IMG/VR virus record: IMGVR_UViG_3300046371_000076
Coordinates: 1 to 36,132 of that record
Strand: one strand, 5' to 3'
Length of the DNA stretch: 36,132 bases
Source of the DNA: a virus
Part shown: piece after piece, positions 6,603 through 36,132 of the stretch
Numbering within the stretch: position 1 is the first letter of the stretch
Layout of the letters: each line of letters begins with the position of its first letter
Notes under the pieces: generated by a model
What the model was told of the DNA's origin: nothing
What the model saw: the letters and a program-made list of their open reading frames with translations, nothing else
The model's database searches: none
Program-made: the position numbers and the translations under genes

Positions 6603-8600
6603 ATGTCTATTCAAGATGTAGGTCAGTCGTTATTAGCTAATGTTCGTGAACGCAAAGATCAACAGTATGAGCAATATAAAAAAGATCAAAGAGATGCTGA
6701 AAGAACTGCGAAACGAAAAGAGCGTCAAGCTAAACTGCTTAATTATGGCGTTGGTTTTTTAGTTGATATAGGTAATAACATTGTAGCTAACAAAACAAAA
6801 GATTTCTTAACTACTGAAGATCAACTTGCAAAAACAGCAAGCATTAAAAATGCTAATGCTTTTGCTCAAGACTATGCAAATACAGAAGCGCAAATAAAAA
6901 CTTATGGTGGCACTTCTCAAGATTACTTTGCTGAGCAAGCTTTGCCTACAGTGCAGAAATTAATTAATACTGAGTATGGCGTAGGATATAATGAAGCTGA
7001 AAAGCAAGCCGCTACGGCAGCTTTAGCTATGAAGTATGGTACTTCGCTCTACGATGCTCATGAAAAACAAAGAGGTGTTTACGATAGGCTAGTTGCAGGA
7101 GACGTAAACTTTGCAGAATATAAAAAAGAAATAGCTGATCTTCAGCCTACAACTATGCTAGGCGCTTTGAAACAAAAAGCTGCTGGTTTGTTTAGTAAAG
7201 GCGAAGACATTGGTTATCAAACAGCAAGATCAATGGGCATGTTAGATATTGTAGATGACGAATTAGATTTTGATGGCGATGGCACAGTTACTGCGGCTGA
7301 AAGAAGTAGTAAAGAAGCTTTTTATAATGTTTATCGACAGTCAAAAAATAATATTCTTGCTACCCATGATCTTCTTCAAGACCTTAAAGACGCAGGAATT
7401 AACATATCTAAAGCTACTCCAACGCTAGGTAAGCCTACTAATATTTATACAATAAATGACTATGGAGAACAAAGACAAGTATCTATTCAAGAAAAAACAA
7501 TTAATGGCGTTTCTGTTGGTTGGGTTGAAGTAGGCACAGGCAAACCTTTTACAAGTCAGAATGGTGAAAGCGTTGACGTTTTAAAAGAAGCGGCAGTAGT
7601 AGAGTTAAATAAAGTTAGAGCTATACAGCCTCAAATTAATCAATTTATAAACCAAAACGATAGCGAAAGAGAAGCTTGGGGAAGAGCTATGAATGCTTTA
7701 ATAGGAGATGCTTCAGATCCAACAGTAAAAAAAGAACGTACAGAATTTGTTGAACGCAGAATGTTTTGGCCTATTACTAAGACAGCTAAGAAACTTCAAA
7801 ATACTTATAACGTAGGCAGCCTAGCAGCAATGCAAATAGCTGTTAAAATGCACACTTTAAACTATGAGTTTATTGGAGAGCAAGGTGGTTTTCTTGGTTC
7901 AAGAGATGAAATAGACATGAGCATGAGCTTGATGCCTGATTTAAAATGGAACAGTCAGCTTGCAGCCGCAGCAGTTTATGATATAGATCAAAGCGGAAAA
8001 TGGGCTGAGGGTGTTCGAGTAAATGACTCGTCAGAAGGAGCAAACGATGGCCTTATGACTTCGTTACTTAGTGAGTCACCAAAAAGAATGTCCCTAAAAC
8101 AAGTAGCTGCTTTTATTGGTGACGTAGAAGACGGAGGCAAAGGAGGTTTCTTAGGTCAGGCTAGATTTAGAGGTTTGCCTATGTATGCAGAAATAGTAGA
8201 ACAATTTAAAGGAGAGCGAGTTAATCAAATTAATCAAGCTGAAGAATCTGCAAGTACTTCAGAAAAAGGCTCGGTTGATGAAGTAGTTCAGTACTCTCAA
8301 GACGAAGCTAAACATTGGTTCCAGAAACATTTTGGAGCAAGTAGAGATTACCAAGCTGCTATTAAAGCAACTCCAGAACAGCAACAAACATTAATTAGAG
8401 CAACTGGTGGCGATGTTTATTTAAATAAACGTAGAAACAGAGAGCTTGTTCATCAAAAAGCTTATGATTGGATTGGTAATAAATTATTAAAAGCTAAAGC
8501 TATCAGAGAACTAAGTCCTACTGATCAGTTGCTTTATAGAAGAAGCGAAGACAAAGACGCTTTCTTATCTAATATTTATGGAGAAAAATTCAATGGTTGA
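6603..8600 (+). CDS. Internal virion / ejection protein with EF-hand-like loop
   Basis: A 665-residue protein with AAAGGA ten bases before the ATG. The N-terminal ~45 residues form a highly charged helix (RERKDQQYEQYKKDQRDAER) followed by a short hydrophobic stretch. At about residue 222 there is a complete 12-residue calcium-loop pattern D-F-D-G-D-G-T-V-T-A-A-E. The remainder is helical with no recognised enzyme motif. It overlaps the start of the giant downstream gene by 8 bases, suggesting translational coupling and a shared role in the ejection apparatus, as with T7 gp15 upstream of gp16. This analogy is positional; no detectable gp15 similarity is claimed. Confidence 0.6.
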   Translation: MSIQDVGQSLLANVRERKDQQYEQYKKDQRDAERTAKRKERQAKLLNYGVGFLVDIGNNIVANKTKDFLTTEDQLAKTASIKNANAFAQDYANTEAQIKTYGGTSQDYFAEQALPTVQKLINTEYGVGYNEAEKQAATAALAMKYGTSLYDAHEKQRGVYDRLVAGDVNFAEYKKEIADLQPTTMLGALKQKAAGLFSKGEDIGYQTARSMGMLDIVDDELDFDGDGTVTAAERSSKEAFYNVYRQSKNNILATHDLLQDLKDAGINISKATPTLGKPTNIYTINDYGEQRQVSIQEKTINGVSVGWVEVGTGKPFTSQNGESVDVLKEAAVVELNKVRAIQPQINQFINQNDSEREAWGRAMNALIGDASDPTVKKERTEFVERRMFWPITKTAKKLQNTYNVGSLAAMQIAVKMHTLNYEFIGEQGGFLGSRDEIDMSMSLMPDLKWNSQLAAAAVYDIDQSGKWAEGVRVNDSSEGANDGLMTSLLSESPKRMSLKQVAAFIGDVEDGGKGGFLGQARFRGLPMYAEIVEQFKGERVNQINQAEESASTSEKGSVDEVVQYSQDEAKHWFQKHFGASRDYQAAIKATPEQQQTLIRATGGDVYLNKRRNRELVHQKAYDWIGNKLLKAKAIRELSPTDQLLYRRSEDKDAFLSNIYGEKFNG

Positions 8601-11600
8601 TTCTTTAGCTCAAAGAACATTAGATTTATATGCTCAAAGAGGAGCAGGAGGAGAAATTACTCCTGAAGATACTTTAATACGAACACAAGAAGAAGCAAAC
8701 AATATTCAACGGTTATTAAAACAACCAAGAGACGTTACTGCTTTTGATCAAGATCCTGAAGTTCTTAAAGACTTTGAAACTGTAACAGATTACTTTGGAA
8801 GCAACCGAACTTTTATGAGTGGTCTGCTTGATCCTGCAAGCATGTTTAATGACAGACCTTCTGAAGCTATGAGAGACGAGTTTAGAATTTCTACGCTTGC
8901 AAACAGAGCTATGGACATGAAAGACGCAACTCCAGAAATTAAAGAAGCATATAACAGACTTCGAGAAAAATGGGAAGGCGCAGACATTCAAGGTTTTGAT
9001 GAGTGGGCAGGTTTTGTAAAAGACTATGGCATAGATCTTATAGCTAACTTTGAAACTATACCAATGATTGCTGCTGCTATTTATTCAGGCGGAACTGCTC
9101 CTACTGCTGCAAATGCAACGGTCAGGAAAGCTCTTCATAGCGCTTTACAGAAAGGAGCTACAGCAGCTAGTAATAACCCATTTAAGTTTGGTGCGGCTTA
9201 TGGCGGTACGTTTAGCAGTGCTGCTGACATAAGCGCTCAAAATTTAAACATGAACTTAGATAATCAAGATGAGTTTAGCTATGGTCAAAATGTTTTGTCT
9301 ACTGGTCTTGGTACTGTTCTAGGCGGAGGAATTAACTGGGGCTTGTCTAAAGTAATTAGCAAGGCGGCAACAAGACGAGCAGAGCGAGCAACTGATGACA
9401 ATAGTGTTCCTTTGTCTCAATCTAAAGGCTTAGAACTTTTTGACGAAGGAATAGAAGGAGAGTGGATTCCTTCTTCTGGCAGTACGGTAATTGATGAAGT
9501 AGATAGACTTCTGGCAGGCAACAGATTTGCAAGAGAAGTAGATCTTGATGATATAGAGTTAGGAGACTTTGATGAAATCTTAGACGACTTTGTAGCTGAT
9601 GTTGGTGGCGGTCAAGCTACACGAGATCAACTAGACGAAGTTGTACTAGGCGAATTAAAGTCTGGTGCAACTGGAGAAGTTATAAAAAATAACATAGCTT
9701 TTAATCTGTGGAAAATTTCTACAGAGCTAGTTGGCACAATGTTTGGTGGCAAATCTTCAGGTATTCTTACAAGCTACGTACCTTACTCAAAGACTGCTGA
9801 AACTTTAAGACAGCGTTTGTCTTTTGACTTTGGCATAAAAGCTACCCAAAAACAAGACGAAGTAGTGGGCATGGACTTTGCTGAAGTAGCTCGAAGATAT
9901 ACTGGTATTTTTAGAGAAAGGTATAGAGAAGCTTTAGCTCCTGTTGGTTTAGATTCTGTAAACGGCTCAATTGAAGACAGCGTTAGTGGTGCGTTAAATA
10001 GAGCTATTCGTGGTCAAATGTCTCCAGACATGACTATAAATACAGCAGCTAAAAACATACAGAACATGTTTAAGCAAATAGGCGAAGAGTTGCATGAAGC
10101 AGGCGTAATAGCTGAAAGAGTAGAAAACTACATTCCTCGTATGTGGAACGGTAAAGCTATTAAAAACAACAGAGATGAGTTCGAGCGTTTGTTAGTTGAA
10201 GAAGGCGAAGCTGATAGTTTAATAGAGGCACAAAGAATCGTAGACGAAATGCTAGATATTAAAAATCAATTAGATGGTGGCACAGCAGGACATTTCTTTT
10301 CTTCTAAACGTAAATTTACAGATATAAAAAACGAAGCTAAGTTTACAGAATTTTTAGAAGACGATTTAATAAGCGTTATTGAAACTTATAACTTCCAAGC
10401 TGGTAAGTCTTTAGCTAAAGTAAAAGTATTTAAAGCTAGAAACGAAGACGAGTTTAAAGCACAGTGGTTAAATCCTATAGTAGCTGAAATGCAGAAAGCT
10501 GGAAGAACTTTAAGTCCAGCAGATAGAGCAAGAATAGTAAATCTTTATAGACTTACTACTGGAGAAAACGTAGAGCGTTTTGGCAACTCGTTACAAACAG
10601 GAGTAGACGGGTATCAGTTAGCTACTCGTCTAGCAATGCTTCCATTAGCTACAGTAGGCAGTGTAACTGAGATACTTATTAATCTTGGTAAAGGAGGAGT
10701 GTTAAATACTGCTAAAGGTTTTAAAGAAGCCTCCGAAGTAGCTTATAAAACTATTACAAATGACCTACACTCAGAACTTAAAAATAGACACGGTTTAACA
10801 ACTAACGAAGTATGGCGAGAGTTGCAGTCTTTTGGCAAGGCAATGGATCAGTCTGTAGGTCAAATAGGCAATCGTCTTGCAGGCGATGATTTAATACATG
10901 AAGGAATGCAAGAAGTAAGCAATAAGTTTTTCCGTTTAAATTTACTAGATCAATGGACAAAGTTTGTTCAAATATCTTCATATGCTACAGGTAAAAATTT
11001 AATTGAAGATAATTTAAAAGCTATAGCTGCTCACGGATCTAAAGCTAGGACAGGCAAAATAGATTCAATGATTGGTGAGTTAAATGAACTAGGCATAGAC
11101 TATAAAGCTGGAGTAAATTGGATTAATAGCGGAGCAAAAAAATCTGATGATTACTATAAAGAATTTACACGAGGCGCATCACGATACGTAGATGGAGTAA
11201 TCTTACAGCCTACAGCAATGTCTAATTTAAAACCAACTCTTTACTCTAATCCTAAGACTACTATTTTATTTCAACTCTTAGGTTATCCAGCAGCTTTTAC
11301 AAATACTGTTCTTAAAGGGGCTGCAAAGTCTGTAATGAAAGATCCTAAACGAAACGGTGCTAAAGTAATGGGAGCTGCTTTGTCAATGACTGCGGCAGCT
11401 AGGTTTATGAACTGGGTGCGTTCTCGTGGCGAAAGCGAAGCTTGGCACATAGATGAATCAGAAAAAAACCTAAGAGCTATTGCACGTTGGGGCGGTAATG
11501 GATTATTTTTAGATACTTTTTCAAGATCTAAAAAGGAAGCTCTTTACGGTCAAAACCCTGCTGGCTATCTTACAATGCCATTTGGCCCTTTTGCTGGAGA

Positions 11601-14600
11601 AATGTTAGACATAGCTAGAGGCAGACCTGCCGAAGTGCTTGGAAACAAAGTTCCTCTTGTTGGATTAGGCACAACTCTTTTTGGTCAGGACGCAATGCGT
11701 AAGTACCGTAAGACTTTAAAGAGTATTGATAAAGGTATTTCTGACAAGTACGTTCCTGACTTTGAATATAACGTAGGCAAAGAAATGTTTTCTAAAGGTG
11801 GCGAAGTTGAAATAGCTAGAGCAGCTTCAGAGCCTGATGAAAGAATGAATAAAGTAACAGGCGTACCTTACAACGTAGAAGCTGGTACAGCCTTTATGGA
11901 CGAGCTTGATGAAGGAAGAACTCAGCGTTTTGGTTTTAATATAGGCGGTAAGGTAGCGCAAAAACTATCTTCTAAACTGGCTGAAGAAATAAATGTGCAT
12001 ACAGAAGGCTTGTTTAATTCTAAAGCTATTAATAATGTAGCAGAAGACATTAATGAAACTGTTACGCTTGGAGGAAACCTTAAAGGAATACAGGACGCAC
12101 CAGTTACTACAGACGACTTTGATACTTTAAGTTTACAAAGCATGTTTACTGACGAATACGATTTTGACGAATATGTAGACGTTGTAACTAAGTCAGTTCT
12201 TGAAGGAAATGTGTCGTCTAATGAACTGCTCACAGAGCTTGCAGAAGAAATAGATCCAAACTACGAAATGTTTGGAGCAATTAATGCGTCCCTTGAAAAT
12301 TTAAAAGTTAAAAAAGATAACCTGCTTCGTCCTGAGTTTAAAGATTTAGATCTAGGAGAAGAAGAAGAGTTGATTGAGCCTCTTACTAAGTTTGTAAGTA
12401 AACATATTAACAAAATGTATTCTGACACTTTAACTAAAGAAGGATCAGAAAAAGCAGCTAAGCAGCACATAGCTAATTTAATGGTTAAAGCTGATGCAAA
12501 TGATGAGATGGCTGAGTTTATAAAAGAAACTGCGGAAATAACTCCAATAGATAGAGGCAGTGATGCTGCGGTTGCGATCAATAAAAATTTAAATATTTCT
12601 AAGGACGAATTTATTGCTGACTCAGAAGTTACAGTCCCAGTATTTAGAGGCGTGTCTAGTTTTAATAATCATAACTATGATATTGCATATGCTTTCCCAA
12701 GAGAAATGGGAGTCCATTACGGCAATCAAGGCCAAGCAAACTATCAAGCTTTAAAAGAAATTAATTTTGATAGTGCTGTAGATAATTTTGCATTAGCCGC
12801 AACAGGCAGGCAAAAAGTAAGTAAAAAAGAAATGTTTGATATGTTTAAAGAAGAGGTAGAAAAAAACAAAAACTTAACTAATCAAGGCTTTGAAGAAAAT
12901 GTTCCTCCTGTAACTATACTAAAGGGTTATTTAAATATTAAAAATCCTTTGTTTATAAATTCAGACATGGGATCTTGGAGCGTAGACAATCTTTTAACTA
13001 AAGACTATGACTTAGTAGAAAACGCACTAGAAGAGGAGCTTGGCAGAGAACTTAGTAGTATTGAAATAGATCTAATAGATGAAATGTCTTTTAGAGCTGT
13101 TGCCCTTGAATCTAAATTTATTCTTGAAGCTTCAGAAGATGCAAACAGTAAAGGAACAAACAAGGTTCAAAACGAAATTGCAATGCTTCTTGATCATGCA
13201 AGACTAACAAAAGATTTTCAAAGCTTTTTAAAAGGTTTAGGTTTTGATGGTATTAAATACAAGAATCAAGTAGAGCCACCGTTTCAAGGCGAAGAGTTTT
13301 ATTCATATATTGCTTTTGACCCACAGCAGTTTAAAAACGTAAGCGCTGCTAAGTTTGATTTAAATGATCCTAGAGATATGTACTCTGAAGGTGGATCAGT
13401 TATAGCTAGGAAGCTTGGTATTCCTGACGAAGCTTTGTCGTGGGCTAGAAGCCAACGAGATAGGTTTCCAAAGAGCGAAAGCTATGACGGAATCGGAGAT
13501 GCGGCAGCTCACTTAGCCCTTGGTTTTATAACTAAAAATGCTAAATATCCTAAAGCTGCTTTGTTTGCAGCAAACGCTAGAGAGTTTGTAACTCTTGATC
13601 ATGTTGGCGGCAAAATGGATATTCATAACAATAAACTAGGCTCTCAAATACAAGCTAGAGATTTTAAACAAGCAGAGCAGGTTATTGATAAATTAATAGC
13701 AGACCGAAAAGCTGTGTTTATGACTCCATCTGAAAGTAAAGCAAGACGAGGCTATAGTGAAGGAGGTCAAGCTTCATATACAGTTGAGGCTGGAGACACT
13801 TTAACATCTATAGCTAAAAATGCTGACACAACAATAGAAGCTATAATGGGCCTTAATGATATTAAAGATGCTAATTTAATCTATGTAGATCAAAAGATTG
13901 TATTGCCTAAAGAAAAAGCATTTGAAGAAAATAAAGTAGTTAGCTCTCTTGCTTCAATGCGTGAAAAACAAGGAAGAAATAATAAGGCAGGAAAAGCGCT
14001 TAATAGACTTCGTAAACTTCGGCAAGATTCAGGCATATCGTCAGATACTTTAAGAGCTTTAAGAAACCTTAAAGAAAGATTAGTACCTAAAAATAAAGAG
14101 CCTGAAGAAAAAAGTTTTATTGCAAGCATACGACAAGCGGCAAATAATCAAGTAGTTAAGAACTTTGCAGACTTCTTTAATCCGTTTCAAAAAGACAAGA
14201 CAGAAGCAGATTACAACCCGAGTGTAATTGAAGCGTTGCGTTTTGCGGCAAAGAATGCTTTAAGCAAAGGTAAATTTAATATTGACTACGGTGATTATAA
14301 TCTACAAGAGTCTAATGTTAGGGGTCAAGTTGCTTATCCAGAGCAAAGAGAGCGAGACAATCTGCAAGCTAGAATGATTCGAGGCGACATTACGCCTACA
14401 GAAGAAGCGGCTTTTTCAGTAGGTGGCGCTCAACTTGCTGTTGAGGATGGTAAAGTATATGTCACAGATGTTTATAACTTTAATAACATAGGTGAGCGCA
14501 TATCTACAGCACTGCCTGACAACTACACTAAACTTAGAACTCTTATGGGTAAAATTAAAATACCTACTAACGACTATAAGAGCAAAATATATGTAGGAGA

Positions 14601-16296
14601 GTTAGATGAGCTTCAAGACAACGACAGATCTAAAGTAAACATAGGCGGCAAGATTGCTGCAAAATTAGCTCCTCGTATGGCAGAAGGTTTTTATAGCCCT
14701 TTAGAAAAGGCATCATTGAATCTCACTCGTGAAAAAGGTACGGGCAATTCGTTTCTGCAAGATTTAAAAAAAGGCGACAAGGGCAGAGTAACTGATGAAG
14801 AATTGGTTTTTACAGGCGTACAGAAAGAACTAAAAGGTTTGCCTAGTACAACAAAAGAAGAAGTTCAACAAATTGTTTCTAATAATAAAATTGAGTTAAA
14901 TACTCTTAGAGGTAAAAAAGGATTGACGCTAGAAGAGCAAGGCTTTGATGAGCTTTCTTTTAACGAAGCTGTTGATGATCATGGTTTGTATGCTTTTGAT
15001 ACAGAGTTTATTCAAAGCGTTTTATCTCCAGAGGTGTTAAGAAAAATTAACTCAGGCGAAATAGGTTTTGATGACGGTAAATATGTTGAGCCGTTAAGAA
15101 AAATGTATTTAAATAAGATGGCTAGAGTAGCTAAAAAAGACATAGGCGAAAAGTCAAAGGGCAAGTATACCTTTGCGGCTGAGTTTTCAGATTATACATT
15201 AGCTGCTAAAGCTGGCTATGAGCCTTCTAATTACAGAGTTATTGCACTGCGTACTCCAAAAAACACAGGCAACCCTATGTTAGATAATATTTCTCATGCA
15301 GAACATGAGCATTTTGGTGCTGTTCTTGAGTACACTAACGAGTCAATTGATAATATTATAGCGCATATTAGGGTTACTGACGGTTTAAGTGGCGACAATT
15401 TTGATAAGACAACTATGTTAATAGAAGAGATACAATCTGATTATCATAAACAAGGCGGCAAGCACGGGTATACTAAAATAGATAAGCCCCTTCCTTATAA
15501 TAAAGAAGAAAAAGAAAAAATCTTTATGACAGAATCAATGAAATTTTACGATGGTTATTTAAAAGAAGTAAAAAAATACTACGATGATCTTGAAGAATTA
15601 GATGAACAAGCTGAAGAATTTTCTGATTATGGTAGTTCTATAATAAACAATTTATTAGAAGAAGGCGTACCTGCAAAAGAAATTAAAATATTTTCTGATA
15701 AATTTATGGAAAATAAAATTAAAGAATTAAATCTTGAACAAAGATTAAACAAAGCAATAAGTGATAAACGATCTAATAGACTTATTCGGATGCTTAACTC
15801 AAAAATTGCTGAGTTAAACGTAGACTTTATAAAAGAGTTGGGAGAAGAAACAAGCGCAAAAGTACGAGATATTTACAAAAAATATTCACTTTATGATTCT
15901 ACTTTTGAAACGAATGATGCTGTTGCTGATGCCCCGTTTAAAAATAGCTGGCCTCGATTAACTCTAAGCAAAGCTCTTATTGAAGCTGTTGAACATGGAA
16001 ACAAACGCATTGCTTTAACTACAGGCAAGTCTCAAGCTGCAAGATACTCAGATGAAATGGGGAATCAACAAACAGGCTTAGGTGAAAAGTATGATACTAA
16101 GTTCTTAAAGCAGTTCAAGAAGCTTGGTAGTAAATACAATTCAAAAGTAAATGTAGAAGAAGTTGGCGTTGCTATAGACGGCAATGAAGTATTAGCAACT
16201 GAGCCTATGTATGTTATGGATATAACGCCAGAGATGGAAAACGCTGTGCGGCAAGGGTTGCGGATGTTTTATGAAGGAGGTTTGATTGATGCCTAA
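8593..16296 (+). CDS. Giant polyvalent ejection protein (ART-like, LysM and polyvalent-protein domains)
   Basis: A 2567-residue protein, far larger than T7 gp16. I prefer ATG 8593 (GGAG nine bases upstream) to ATG 8578. Residues 1-~1060 resemble the large internal proteins of marine podoviruses, ending near FQLLGYPAAFTNTVLKGAA (~895). Then come modules: ~1350-1600 an ADP-ribosyltransferase-like polyvalent domain (FRG, REMGVHYG, YLNIKNPL, GFDGIKYKN, SYIAFDPQQFK); ~1630-1700 a domain with GDAAAHLAL and MDIHNNKLG, like DUF6973-type domains; ~1729-1773 a LysM repeat (YTVEAGDTLTSIAK); ~1878-1960 an unknown domain (IDYGDYN, VTDVYNF); and ~2026-2550 the large polyvalent-protein domain (YSPLEKASLNL, IEEIQSDYHKQG, APFKNSWPRL, ALTTGKSQAARY). 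Expected to be packaged and injected into the host. Module calls rest on motif recall. Confidence 0.75.
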   Translation: MVDSLAQRTLDLYAQRGAGGEITPEDTLIRTQEEANNIQRLLKQPRDVTAFDQDPEVLKDFETVTDYFGSNRTFMSGLLDPASMFNDRPSEAMRDEFRISTLANRAMDMKDATPEIKEAYNRLREKWEGADIQGFDEWAGFVKDYGIDLIANFETIPMIAAAIYSGGTAPTAANATVRKALHSALQKGATAASNNPFKFGAAYGGTFSSAADISAQNLNMNLDNQDEFSYGQNVLSTGLGTVLGGGINWGLSKVISKAATRRAERATDDNSVPLSQSKGLELFDEGIEGEWIPSSGSTVIDEVDRLLAGNRFAREVDLDDIELGDFDEILDDFVADVGGGQATRDQLDEVVLGELKSGATGEVIKNNIAFNLWKISTELVGTMFGGKSSGILTSYVPYSKTAETLRQRLSFDFGIKATQKQDEVVGMDFAEVARRYTGIFRERYREALAPVGLDSVNGSIEDSVSGALNRAIRGQMSPDMTINTAAKNIQNMFKQIGEELHEAGVIAERVENYIPRMWNGKAIKNNRDEFERLLVEEGEADSLIEAQRIVDEMLDIKNQLDGGTAGHFFSSKRKFTDIKNEAKFTEFLEDDLISVIETYNFQAGKSLAKVKVFKARNEDEFKAQWLNPIVAEMQKAGRTLSPADRARIVNLYRLTTGENVERFGNSLQTGVDGYQLATRLAMLPLATVGSVTEILINLGKGGVLNTAKGFKEASEVAYKTITNDLHSELKNRHGLTTNEVWRELQSFGKAMDQSVGQIGNRLAGDDLIHEGMQEVSNKFFRLNLLDQWTKFVQISSYATGKNLIEDNLKAIAAHGSKARTGKIDSMIGELNELGIDYKAGVNWINSGAKKSDDYYKEFTRGASRYVDGVILQPTAMSNLKPTLYSNPKTTILFQLLGYPAAFTNTVLKGAAKSVMKDPKRNGAKVMGAALSMTAAARFMNWVRSRGESEAWHIDESEKNLRAIARWGGNGLFLDTFSRSKKEALYGQNPAGYLTMPFGPFAGEMLDIARGRPAEVLGNKVPLVGLGTTLFGQDAMRKYRKTLKSIDKGISDKYVPDFEYNVGKEMFSKGGEVEIARAASEPDERMNKVTGVPYNVEAGTAFMDELDEGRTQRFGFNIGGKVAQKLSSKLAEEINVHTEGLFNSKAINNVAEDINETVTLGGNLKGIQDAPVTTDDFDTLSLQSMFTDEYDFDEYVDVVTKSVLEGNVSSNELLTELAEEIDPNYEMFGAINASLENLKVKKDNLLRPEFKDLDLGEEEELIEPLTKFVSKHINKMYSDTLTKEGSEKAAKQHIANLMVKADANDEMAEFIKETAEITPIDRGSDAAVAINKNLNISKDEFIADSEVTVPVFRGVSSFNNHNYDIAYAFPREMGVHYGNQGQANYQALKEINFDSAVDNFALAATGRQKVSKKEMFDMFKEEVEKNKNLTNQGFEENVPPVTILKGYLNIKNPLFINSDMGSWSVDNLLTKDYDLVENALEEELGRELSSIEIDLIDEMSFRAVALESKFILEASEDANSKGTNKVQNEIAMLLDHARLTKDFQSFLKGLGFDGIKYKNQVEPPFQGEEFYSYIAFDPQQFKNVSAAKFDLNDPRDMYSEGGSVIARKLGIPDEALSWARSQRDRFPKSESYDGIGDAAAHLALGFITKNAKYPKAALFAANAREFVTLDHVGGKMDIHNNKLGSQIQARDFKQAEQVIDKLIADRKAVFMTPSESKARRGYSEGGQASYTVEAGDTLTSIAKNADTTIEAIMGLNDIKDANLIYVDQKIVLPKEKAFEENKVVSSLASMREKQGRNNKAGKALNRLRKLRQDSGISSDTLRALRNLKERLVPKNKEPEEKSFIASIRQAANNQVVKNFADFFNPFQKDKTEADYNPSVIEALRFAAKNALSKGKFNIDYGDYNLQESNVRGQVAYPEQRERDNLQARMIRGDITPTEEAAFSVGGAQLAVEDGKVYVTDVYNFNNIGERISTALPDNYTKLRTLMGKIKIPTNDYKSKIYVGELDELQDNDRSKVNIGGKIAAKLAPRMAEGFYSPLEKASLNLTREKGTGNSFLQDLKKGDKGRVTDEELVFTGVQKELKGLPSTTKEEVQQIVSNNKIELNTLRGKKGLTLEEQGFDELSFNEAVDDHGLYAFDTEFIQSVLSPEVLRKINSGEIGFDDGKYVEPLRKMYLNKMARVAKKDIGEKSKGKYTFAAEFSDYTLAAKAGYEPSNYRVIALRTPKNTGNPMLDNISHAEHEHFGAVLEYTNESIDNIIAHIRVTDGLSGDNFDKTTMLIEEIQSDYHKQGGKHGYTKIDKPLPYNKEEKEKIFMTESMKFYDGYLKEVKKYYDDLEELDEQAEEFSDYGSSIINNLLEEGVPAKEIKIFSDKFMENKIKELNLEQRLNKAISDKRSNRLIRMLNSKIAELNVDFIKELGEETSAKVRDIYKKYSLYDSTFETNDAVADAPFKNSWPRLTLSKALIEAVEHGNKRIALTTGKSQAARYSDEMGNQQTGLGEKYDTKFLKQFKKLGSKYNSKVNVEEVGVAIDGNEVLATEPMYVMDITPEMENAVRQGLRMFYEGGLIDA

Positions 16297-18523: not shown

Positions 18524-18903
18524 AAGCGCAAGACGTAGCCTTATGGATAGGCATAGCAAGTTCAATAGGCGGTGCGGCAGTTGGCTATGGCACATTAACT
18601 GAAAAAGTATCTACACTGGAAGCTTCTACAGATGCTACTCATCTGGAAGCCCGATTAACTAAACTAGAAACGAGGATAGAAGACAATGATATTGGACACA
18701 TTGGTACAGAAATTCAAGAACTTCGGGGACAAATTGAAAGCAATGCCGAAAAAATTAAAGGGATTGTTGTCCCGAACACAAGCAAAATTAAAGCAGATAT
18801 ACGAGTGCTTGAAACAGAAGTTAAAGGGTTGGGTGAAGAGCTTAAAAGTCTTGAAGGTCGAGTCGAGAAAATAAATAGTAAACCAAGCAATCCATTGTTG
18901 TAG
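18520..18903 (+). CDS. Membrane-anchored coiled-coil protein (i-spanin-like topology)
   Basis: A 127-residue protein with AGGAG seven bases upstream and a 4-base ATGA overlap with the previous gene. One N-terminal membrane segment (VALWIGIASSIGGAAVGYGT) is followed by a long heptad-rich charged helix (LTKLETRIEDND ... LETEVKGLGEELKSLEGRV) to near the end. That is the topology of inner-membrane spanins (Rz-like), but also of other small phage membrane proteins. No separate o-spanin lipoprotein was identified. The KLETRI segment echoes RLETRI in the small membrane protein at 1942. Confidence 0.6.
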   Translation: MKAQDVALWIGIASSIGGAAVGYGTLTEKVSTLEASTDATHLEARLTKLETRIEDNDIGHIGTEIQELRGQIESNAEKIKGIVVPNTSKIKADIRVLETEVKGLGEELKSLEGRVEKINSKPSNPLL

Positions 18904-34895: not shown

Positions 34896-34942
34896 ACTTT
34901 TAAAATACATAATCGCTTTAAGCTCTTATGTATTTTAAAAGT
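34896..34942. repeat. Perfect 17-bp inverted repeat (hairpin)
   Basis: ACTTTTAAAATACATAA and TTATGTATTTTAAAAGT flank a 13-base loop. It lies in the gap between the stop at 34964 and the ATG at 34860. On the minus strand the 3' side is TATTTTATTT, loosely U-rich, so weak termination is possible. The TTTTAAAA core is shared with the hairpins at 33687 and 35693. Confidence 0.8.
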
Positions 34943-35148: not shown

Positions 35149-35179
35149 AAAAAAACCCCGATCACTTTCGTGACCGAGG
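35149..35179 (-). terminator. Rho-independent terminator
   Basis: On the minus strand CCTCGGTCAC-GAAA-GTGATCGGGG forms a 10-bp stem (two G-T pairs) with a stable GAAA tetraloop, followed directly by seven T. It lies 10 bases after the stop of the 35190-35678 gene and before the 50-residue gene, so it should attenuate transcription from the first early gene. Confidence 0.92.
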
Positions 35180-35189
35180 CGTTATAGAT

Positions 35190-35678
35190 TTATTTACTTT
35201 GAATAGATTCTAAAATCATTCCGATGCCAGCTTCAATGTCGCCAACCTTGGAGACTAAAGTCTCAAAGCGATTTTCCATATCATCTAATCGGGCATTGAT
35301 CTTCTTGACATTAGAATTTTCAGGATGAACCTCAACTGGAACTAACGGAGCGGCAACCCTTTCGAGATAGTCTATAACCTCAGGCTCAGGCTTAGACTTC
35401 TTTGAAGTCTTCTTAGCTTTCGGCTTCGGTGCTGTCTTAGACTTAATGCGGGACTGAATAGACTTTGGAACTGTCTCGCATTCAAAGTAGCTTTGAATGT
35501 CTGCATGGGTCAGTTTGGCTTCGCCATGTTGAGAGTTGAGGATGGCGTTATAGACTTTCGTAAGCCCATAGCGCTCAGATTTTTCTGCGGCACACAGCGA
35601 AGCAAAGCGATTTGCGACAGCCCAAATTTGCTTTGAAGTGGCGATTCGGTTGGCGTCGATTTCGGTGAAGTTTGGCAT
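35190..35678 (-). CDS. First early protein: basic linker and C-terminal coiled coil, possible regulator
   Basis: A 162-residue protein, the first convincing gene from the right end, with GAGGA eight bases before ATG. Residues 1-~80 are a helical domain (RIATSKQIWAVANRFASLCA; TKVYNAILNSQHGEAKLTHA; ADIQSYFECETVPKSIQSRI) of possible DNA-binding type; ~81-97 is a Lys/Pro/Ser-rich linker (APKPKAKKTSKKSKPEPEV); ~124-158 is a heptad-repeat helix (INARLDDMENRFETLVSKVG) suited to oligomerisation. Domain-linker-coiled-coil is a common architecture for regulators. It is followed by a strong terminator and preceded by a 94-base hairpin and palindromes. Not recognised as a family. Confidence 0.7.
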   Translation of the reverse strand: MPNFTEIDANRIATSKQIWAVANRFASLCAAEKSERYGLTKVYNAILNSQHGEAKLTHADIQSYFECETVPKSIQSRIKSKTAPKPKAKKTSKKSKPEPEVIDYLERVAAPLVPVEVHPENSNVKKINARLDDMENRFETLVSKVGDIEAGIGMILESIQSK

Positions 35679-35692
35679 GGCAATTTTCCTCT

Positions 35693-35786
35693 AGTTGGTT
35701 TATTGAATTACTTAAAGATTCTAAAAAATACCTTTTTCACTTTAGTTCAAAAGTATTTTTTAGAATCGTAATTCAATAAACCAACT
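35693..35786. repeat. Very long hairpin (34 bp of stem) in the first gene's leader
   Basis: Outer arms 35693-35711 and 35768-35786 (19 bp, perfect, starting AGTTGGTTTATTGAATTAC) and inner arms 35717-35731 and 35753-35767 (15 bp, perfect, GATTCTAAAAAATAC) are joined by a 5-base bulge on one side; the loop is 21 bases. It lies 15 bases before the ATG of the 35678 gene, so it would be in its mRNA leader. Confidence 0.9.
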
Positions 35787-35788
35787 TC

Positions 35789-35837
35789 CACCTTACTTTA
35801 AAACAGTTATTAAAGTTTTAAAGTAAGGTGTTTTTTT
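35789..35837 (+). terminator. Plus-strand intrinsic terminator (16-bp stem, seven T)
   Basis: CACCTTACTTTAAAAC, 10-base loop, GTTTTAAAGTAAGGTG, then TTTTTTT on the plus strand. It has the right orientation to stop rightward transcription, yet no plus-strand gene lies upstream within 15 kb. On the minus strand the same stem is preceded by seven A, so it may also partly terminate or fold in the early leader. See the antisense-RNA finding. Confidence 0.8.
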
Positions 35838-36005
35838 GATCAGCTTCATAAACTTAACTAGACTTCTAAGCTCTGCTTAGTTAATGCTTCAAGCCATTGA
35901 AATCTTTGAAGACTTCCGAGAAGATTCTAAAGAATCTTAAAAGTCTCTAAAGCTCCACAATTTGTAAACTAGAGCGAAGCTCTCCAAAGGCTTTAAAGCC
36001 CTTTG

Positions 36006-36024
36006 AAGACTTTTAAAGTCTTTA
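36006..36024. repeat. Palindromic 19-mer, copy 1 (candidate operator)
   Basis: AAGACTTT-T-AAAGTCTT plus TA: a 17-bp dyad with one central base, identical to the copy at 36048-36066. It overlaps the -10 box of the predicted minus-strand promoter at 36021-36049. Centre-to-centre spacing to copy 2 is 42 bp, four helical turns. Confidence 0.65.
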
Positions 36025-36049
36025 CAGGCTATGCAGAGGTGTCCGTCAA
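36021..36049 (-). promoter_or_regulatory. Candidate early promoter
   Basis: On the minus strand TTGACG (36049-36044, 5/6) and TGTAAA (36026-36021, 4/6) are separated by 17 bases. It would transcribe leftward toward the 35678 gene through a ~345-base structured leader. Each box overlaps one copy of the palindromic 19-mer. Confidence 0.5.
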
Positions 36050-36066
36050 GACTTTTAAAGTCTTTA
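36048..36066. repeat. Palindromic 19-mer, copy 2 (candidate operator)
   Basis: Second identical copy of AAGACTTTTAAAGTCTTTA, overlapping the start of the -35 box of the predicted promoter at 36021-36049. An occupied site would be positioned to occlude or contact RNA polymerase. Confidence 0.65.
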
Positions 36067-36132
36067 ACGTGCGTGTAAGCTTGAGGGTAGGCAGGTGGCC
36101 ATACCCCCTCCCCCCTATATATACTCAATCTT

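Follow-up and report, generated by a model that had tools for sequence, protein, structure and literature searches.

A drifting array of short fold-back palindromes in the divergent intergenic region of a clade of HMO-2011-type marine phages

Results

The Intergenic Region and Its Phage

The window, that is the whole stretch of 36,132 nucleotides analyzed here, ends on the right in a contig break inside an intergenic region and not at a genome end. Three relatives (L001, L002 and L003) run past this point into a gene that encodes 132 aa. In HTVC115P, HTVC103P and other phages, homologues of its product carry the annotation terminase small subunit. The intergenic region lies between the leftward gene at 35190-35678, called the 35190 gene in the following, and the terminase small subunit gene beyond the window (Table 1). 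The initial annotation had considered that the sequence at this end might belong to a longer terminal repeat. The window ends are not joined by any direct repeat of 8-399 bases and relatives continue past the right end, hence a terminal repeat was rejected. We also rejected the idea that contig ends mark a physical terminus, since they scatter through the hairpin array described below and a few fall at the conserved box.

The window encodes a primase-helicase, PolA, a ribonucleotide reductase, a Cas4-type exonuclease and a Gp2.5-like SSB. PolA matches the pelagiphages HTVC103P/104P/115P at about 48%, and the terminase small subunit matches the same phages at 51-56% and HMO-2011 at 36.5%; by the latter protein, CRP phages and HMO-2011 are more distant. 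Because homologues of both proteins were found and both are closest to those of the Pelagibacter phages HTVC115P/103P/104P, the window is placed by protein similarity near the HMO-2011-type phages, a dominant and widespread marine group (PMC9038755). The words hairpin, promoter and intergenic are absent from the main paper on this group (PMC9038755). GC skew changes sign near 20 kb and the cumulative-skew minimum would fall near the right end. Gene direction changes at the same place, so the skew does not speak independently for an origin.

Table 1. Features at the right end of the window
Feature	Position	Strand	Remark
Intrinsic terminator of the 35190 gene, CCTCGGTCAC-GAAA-GTGATCGGGG-TTTTTTT	35152..35179	-	RNA-level control
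Gene for 162-aa protein	35190..35678	-	first leftward gene after the array
Long inverted repeat AGTTGGTTTATTGAATTAC...GTAATTCAATAAACCAACT	35693..35786	.	immediately upstream of the 35190 start codon
Long inverted repeat CACCTTACTTTAA...TTAAAGTAAGGTG	35789..35830	.	close to the 35190 start
Hairpin CTAAGC-TCT-GCTTAG	35866..35880	.
Hairpin AAGATTC-TAAA-GAATCTT	35921..35938	.
Mini-hairpin AGAGC-GAA-GCTCT	35971..35983	.	read from sequence
Palindrome GGCTTTAAAGCC	35989..36000	.	same array; read from sequence
Hairpin AAGACTT-TTA-AAGTCTT	36006..36022	.	first copy of the pair
Hairpin AAGACTT-TTA-AAGTCTT	36048..36064	.	second copy, closest to the conserved box
Conserved box GGCAGGTGGCCAT-(C run; G run in relatives)-TATATATAC	36090..36124	.	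extends beyond the window as ...TATACATTTT

Two 19-mers Are Members of a Hairpin Array

Two palindromic 19-mers had been described near the right end in the initial annotation, and this pair was borne out. AAGACTTTTAAAGTCTTTA occurs exactly at 36006-36024 and 36048-36066 on the plus strand, 42 bp apart from start to start. A search allowing up to three mismatches gave five matches in the window, far above the 0.06 obtained in shuffles; four of them are the two sites read on either strand, and the fifth is weak and lies at 18834. The pair sits within a run of further hairpins (35693-36000) that had been missed, and the two 19-mers are two members of a hairpin array, not an isolated operator pair. 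Their hairpin is the commonest in the arrays of the family, with 60 occurrences and 23 in reverse complement over 72 regions. At the place of the mini-hairpin, L003 carries AGAGC-TAC-GCTCT. The long inverted repeat at 35789..35830 has the same fold with another sequence in L004, L007, L008 and L009, and the one at 35693..35786 retains its fold with other letters in L004, L007 and L009. A further long inverted repeat, CTTTTAAAATACATAA...TTATGTATTTTAAAAG, was seen at 34896-34942, in the stretch between genes that precedes the next leftward one.

Searches with the 35190 and terminase proteins yielded 72 distinct intergenic regions with this layout, 601-1130 bp in length, from uncultured marine phages that are kin of HMO-2011 and HTVC115P. 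We counted non-overlapping, perfect hairpins with a stem of at least 6 and a loop of 3-8 and used dinucleotide shuffles as control. The 72 regions contained 715 such hairpins compared to 123 in the shuffles. With stems of at least 7, the array region reaches up to 7-9 hairpins per 500 bp, compared to mostly 0-3 elsewhere in the sampled loci; the window, with two to three of them, has one of the poorer arrays. Number and position of the array hairpins vary between clades, so that a joint alignment would be unreliable. Distinct inverted repeats with spacers of 0, 1, 2, 3, 4 and 5 nt numbered 13, 20, 24, 30, 42 and 14, respectively, an enrichment over about 2-5 each. The peak thus lies at 3-4 nt, spacers of 6-12 nt are near chance, and extra peaks at 13, 14 and 17 nt are probably due to the longer hairpins close to the start codon. 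Such a profile marks fold-back hairpins, not paired half-sites on duplex DNA. In L070, the intergenic region near the 35190 homologue carries several tandem units of ~75 bp containing GGTCAAGTCGTTTCCCT.CGCATTATGCGGTTGTGAAA.

Comparison of the spacing in related genomes showed that the pair at 42 bp is found only in L001, L003, L017 and a near-identical contig of L013. In other relatives with at least two copies, the spacing is 34, 51-55, 80, 144 or 223-236 bp. Nineteen of the 72 regions have no copy at all and the others have up to three. AAGACTTTTAAAGTCTT or its reverse complement is present in 53 of the 72 regions, up to three times.

Promoters and the Conserved Box

On the minus strand, TTGACG is located at 36049-36044 and TGTAAA at 36026-36021, separated by 17 bp. 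The two boxes of the promoter proposed in the initial annotation are therefore present where claimed; TGTAAA agrees with the consensus at 4 of 6 positions, and the promoter is not conserved outside near-identical relatives. All 72 regions carry leftward and rightward sigma70 promoters of the TTGACA-17-TATAAT type, each with at most one mismatch. These divergent promoters sit closer to the terminase gene, beyond the window. In L001, the leftward promoter lies, in window terms, about 130 bp past the window end, and the conserved leftward promoter of the relatives is about 200 bp away from the pair. Because all 72 regions carry promoters nearer to the terminase gene, the palindromes are predicted to lie in the transcribed leader of the leftward transcript.

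The array adjoins a G-run/TATATATA box, which was identified in 69 of the 72 regions by its TACATTTT end. Its homopolymer flips strand between relatives, the plus strand reading C in some and G in others; L051 (G type) and L052 (C type) have nearly identical box flanks. A similar box is present in HTVC103P and HTVC115P, both of which lack the array. The hairpin closest to the box was found in 29 different sequences, most often about 7 nt away. A table of box-proximal hairpins was restricted to perfect stems of at least 6, so that its inner pairs are Watson-Crick by construction. In most relatives the hairpin nearest the box differs in sequence from the one at 36048..36064 in the window.

Folding Is Kept While Letters Change

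The unbiased test is the nearest-neighbor comparison, in which hairpins are defined in one sequence and then read in the other. In 51 such comparisons, 1424 stem pairs of the array were unchanged, 63 had changed on one side and 48 on both. Of these double changes, 40 were again Watson-Crick, where one third would be expected if the sides were unrelated; such compensatory changes, as expected of a structured RNA, do not separate RNA from DNA. Stem sides diverge by about 5% compared to 14.5% at unpaired positions. In these comparisons the folding of the array is conserved while the letters drift.

If a transcript fold were selected, single changes should favor G.U on the transcribed strand. We observed 18 wobble-type single stem changes for the minus strand and 30 for the plus strand, and hence no such strand bias. 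Similarly, stems with one mismatch comprised 12 G.T and 10 A.C distinct cases on the plus strand. The terminators behind the 35190-type gene served as RNA control and had 17 G.U against 3 A.C, with cases that are few and related. Because the array lacks the wobble bias, unlike the terminators of the same transcript, it appears to be the DNA and not the RNA on which selection, or else a copying process, acts. No Rfam match at the gathering score was obtained in the window, L001, L003, L004 or L005. A strand bias in loop sequence was rejected as weak (T:A of 254:207 in loops versus 9038:8500 in linkers).

The 35190 Protein and Its Link to the Array

Structure prediction gives the 35190 family a confident helical N-terminal domain, a low-confidence linker rich in Lys, Pro and Ala, and a C-terminal coiled coil. 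Searches in Pfam, PHROGs, PDB and viral folds gave no match for this protein, and assignment to a known family or fold was rejected. Five relatives (L040, L041, L048, L050 and L058) have the box, no 35190 homologue and 0-1 hairpins with a stem of at least 7; L152 likewise has 0-1. L069 has four such hairpins despite a different neighboring gene. Where seen, the first leftward gene in L040, L041, L048, L058, L069 and L152 is unrelated and mostly encodes 149-185 aa. The isolates HTVC115P and HTVC103P have neither the array nor a 35190 homologue. Array and 35190-type gene mostly co-occur in these comparisons, a suggestive link, and the gene to which the initial annotation had pointed as nearest candidate is indeed tied in its occurrence to the palindromes.

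The 149-aa replacement protein beside the box also ends in a coiled-coil-like segment. The contig L152 (JAAXIF010000071.1), filed as a Sphingobacteriales MAG, has a box-like sequence as well as the phage terminase small subunit, and thus appears to be viral DNA that was placed in a bacterial bin.

Discussion

Our best guess is that the region is a replication origin or control region working via folded DNA. With a probability of roughly 0.45, we propose that the hairpin array in the divergent control region works as folded DNA, probably as part of an origin or early-control region, and is bound by shape. The short fold-back palindromes of this HMO-2011-type clade would act as hairpins on melted strands, or as cruciforms under negative supercoiling derived from transcription, and together with the adjoining G-run/TATATATA box they would probably form part of the replication origin or early-control region. 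Binding by shape would probably be achieved by the clade-specific, Lys-rich coiled-coil 35190 protein; replication proteins encoded by the phage itself (primase-helicase, Gp2.5-like SSB) are alternative candidates. Origin function and protein recognition are both what we infer from several lines of evidence. These are the hairpin excess, the 3-4 nt spacers, the paired changes without wobble bias, the box-adjacent hairpin that keeps its distance of about 7 nt with many stem sequences, and the divergent promoters in every region. Furthermore, the box is common to isolates without the array, and where no 35190 homologue is present, the array is mostly missing too. A skew minimum near this end and the encoded primase-helicase, PolA and SSB also count in favor. 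The signs of an origin at the region itself, namely the AT-rich box, the skew minimum near the window end and the adjoining leftward gene, are indirect. Against this proposal counts that the array is not linked to replication through any known protein, as does L069 with its several hairpins beside a different gene. Since AAGACTTTTAAAGTCTT recurs often, some sequence recognition may be superimposed. The more specific idea, that a clade of tailed dsDNA phages uses a shape-recognized hairpin array, bound by a 35190-family protein, as origin or early switch, is tentative and in our view rather doubtful.

The same palindromes could be read as a structured leader or noncoding RNA of several hundred nt, made from the leftward promoter and acting on 35190 expression or separately. 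Such an RNA would fit the layout of all 72 regions, where a transcript from the consensus-type leftward promoter would cross the array before reaching the 35190 start. It would also fit the short loops, which suit RNA hairpins, and the terminator that follows the gene both in the window and in several relatives. However, the G.U excess on the transcribed strand is absent from the array and present in the real terminators, no Rfam family reached the cut-off in five sources, and the flip of the box from G run to C run would alter the RNA drastically. We consider an RNA unlikely. Template switching during replication, which would keep copying one arm onto the other, can produce paired changes without selection and would leave palindromes without function. 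It yields no wobble strand bias and favors short loops, as observed, but does not account well for stems that diverge less than unpaired sites, for a hairpin whose distance to the box hardly varies among divergent relatives, or for an array whose presence mostly tracks the neighboring gene; we regard it as quite improbable.

The initial annotation, which is partly supported, had interpreted the pair as cooperative operators, and this operator reading is mostly wrong. A dimeric regulator (repressor or activator) that binds duplex palindromes, for which the 35190 protein is a possibility, would be in line with the wide recurrence of AAGACTTTTAAAGTCTT and with an adjoining gene whose coiled-coil product is a candidate regulator. 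Sites bound by sequence should keep their sequence, yet the arms covary and units of other sequence stand at equivalent places, so that the operator pair is unsupported. The 42-bp geometry is kept only in near-identical relatives, copy number varies down to none, and the promoter to be controlled is not conserved, the conserved one lying away from the pair. Operators of this kind are therefore very improbable. The case shows that an operator reading of one locus, however compelling, may not survive comparison with relatives. The array with its folded-DNA interpretation and the 35190 family together offer a concrete place and protein for testing replication start and early expression. It is unusual for an intergenic array to keep its folding and not its letters when this happens at the level of DNA and no RNA signature is seen.

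Filamentous phages of the M13 type have a single intergenic region with several DNA hairpins that serve origin and packaging functions. The array region resembles it in its intergenic DNA hairpins, with a known origin and packaging role in M13 and a putative origin role here. M13 is an ssDNA phage with few, specific hairpins, whereas the present phages are tailed dsDNA phages with a larger array and drifting stems. In phage N4, hairpins with short stems and tiny loops are recognized as folded DNA and act as promoters for a giant virion polymerase. By analogy, short DNA stems with tiny loops would also mark the early region here. Unlike the hairpin early promoters of the N4 virion RNA polymerase (PMC4496689), the array regions have consensus sigma70-type promoters. 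No N4-type virion RNA polymerase was found in the window; its largest protein (2572 aa, 8578-16296) matches LysM and endolysin families only, with a LysM domain and a giant endolysin family match over about 1560 residues. On the genes encoded in the window, hairpin promoters of the N4 type were rejected. GOLLD and ROOL, ornate large RNAs of bacteria and phages (PMC12286853), share with the array a long multi-hairpin noncoding region with paired changes, but the array matched nothing in Rfam, and its transcribed strand shows no wobble bias. The intergenic region of HTVC115P and HTVC103P differs from the array regions in lacking hairpin array and 35190 homologue. It is similar in its position beside the terminase small subunit gene and in the G-run/TATATA box of both isolates, and HTVC115P carries TTGACA-type divergent promoters, as do the array regions.
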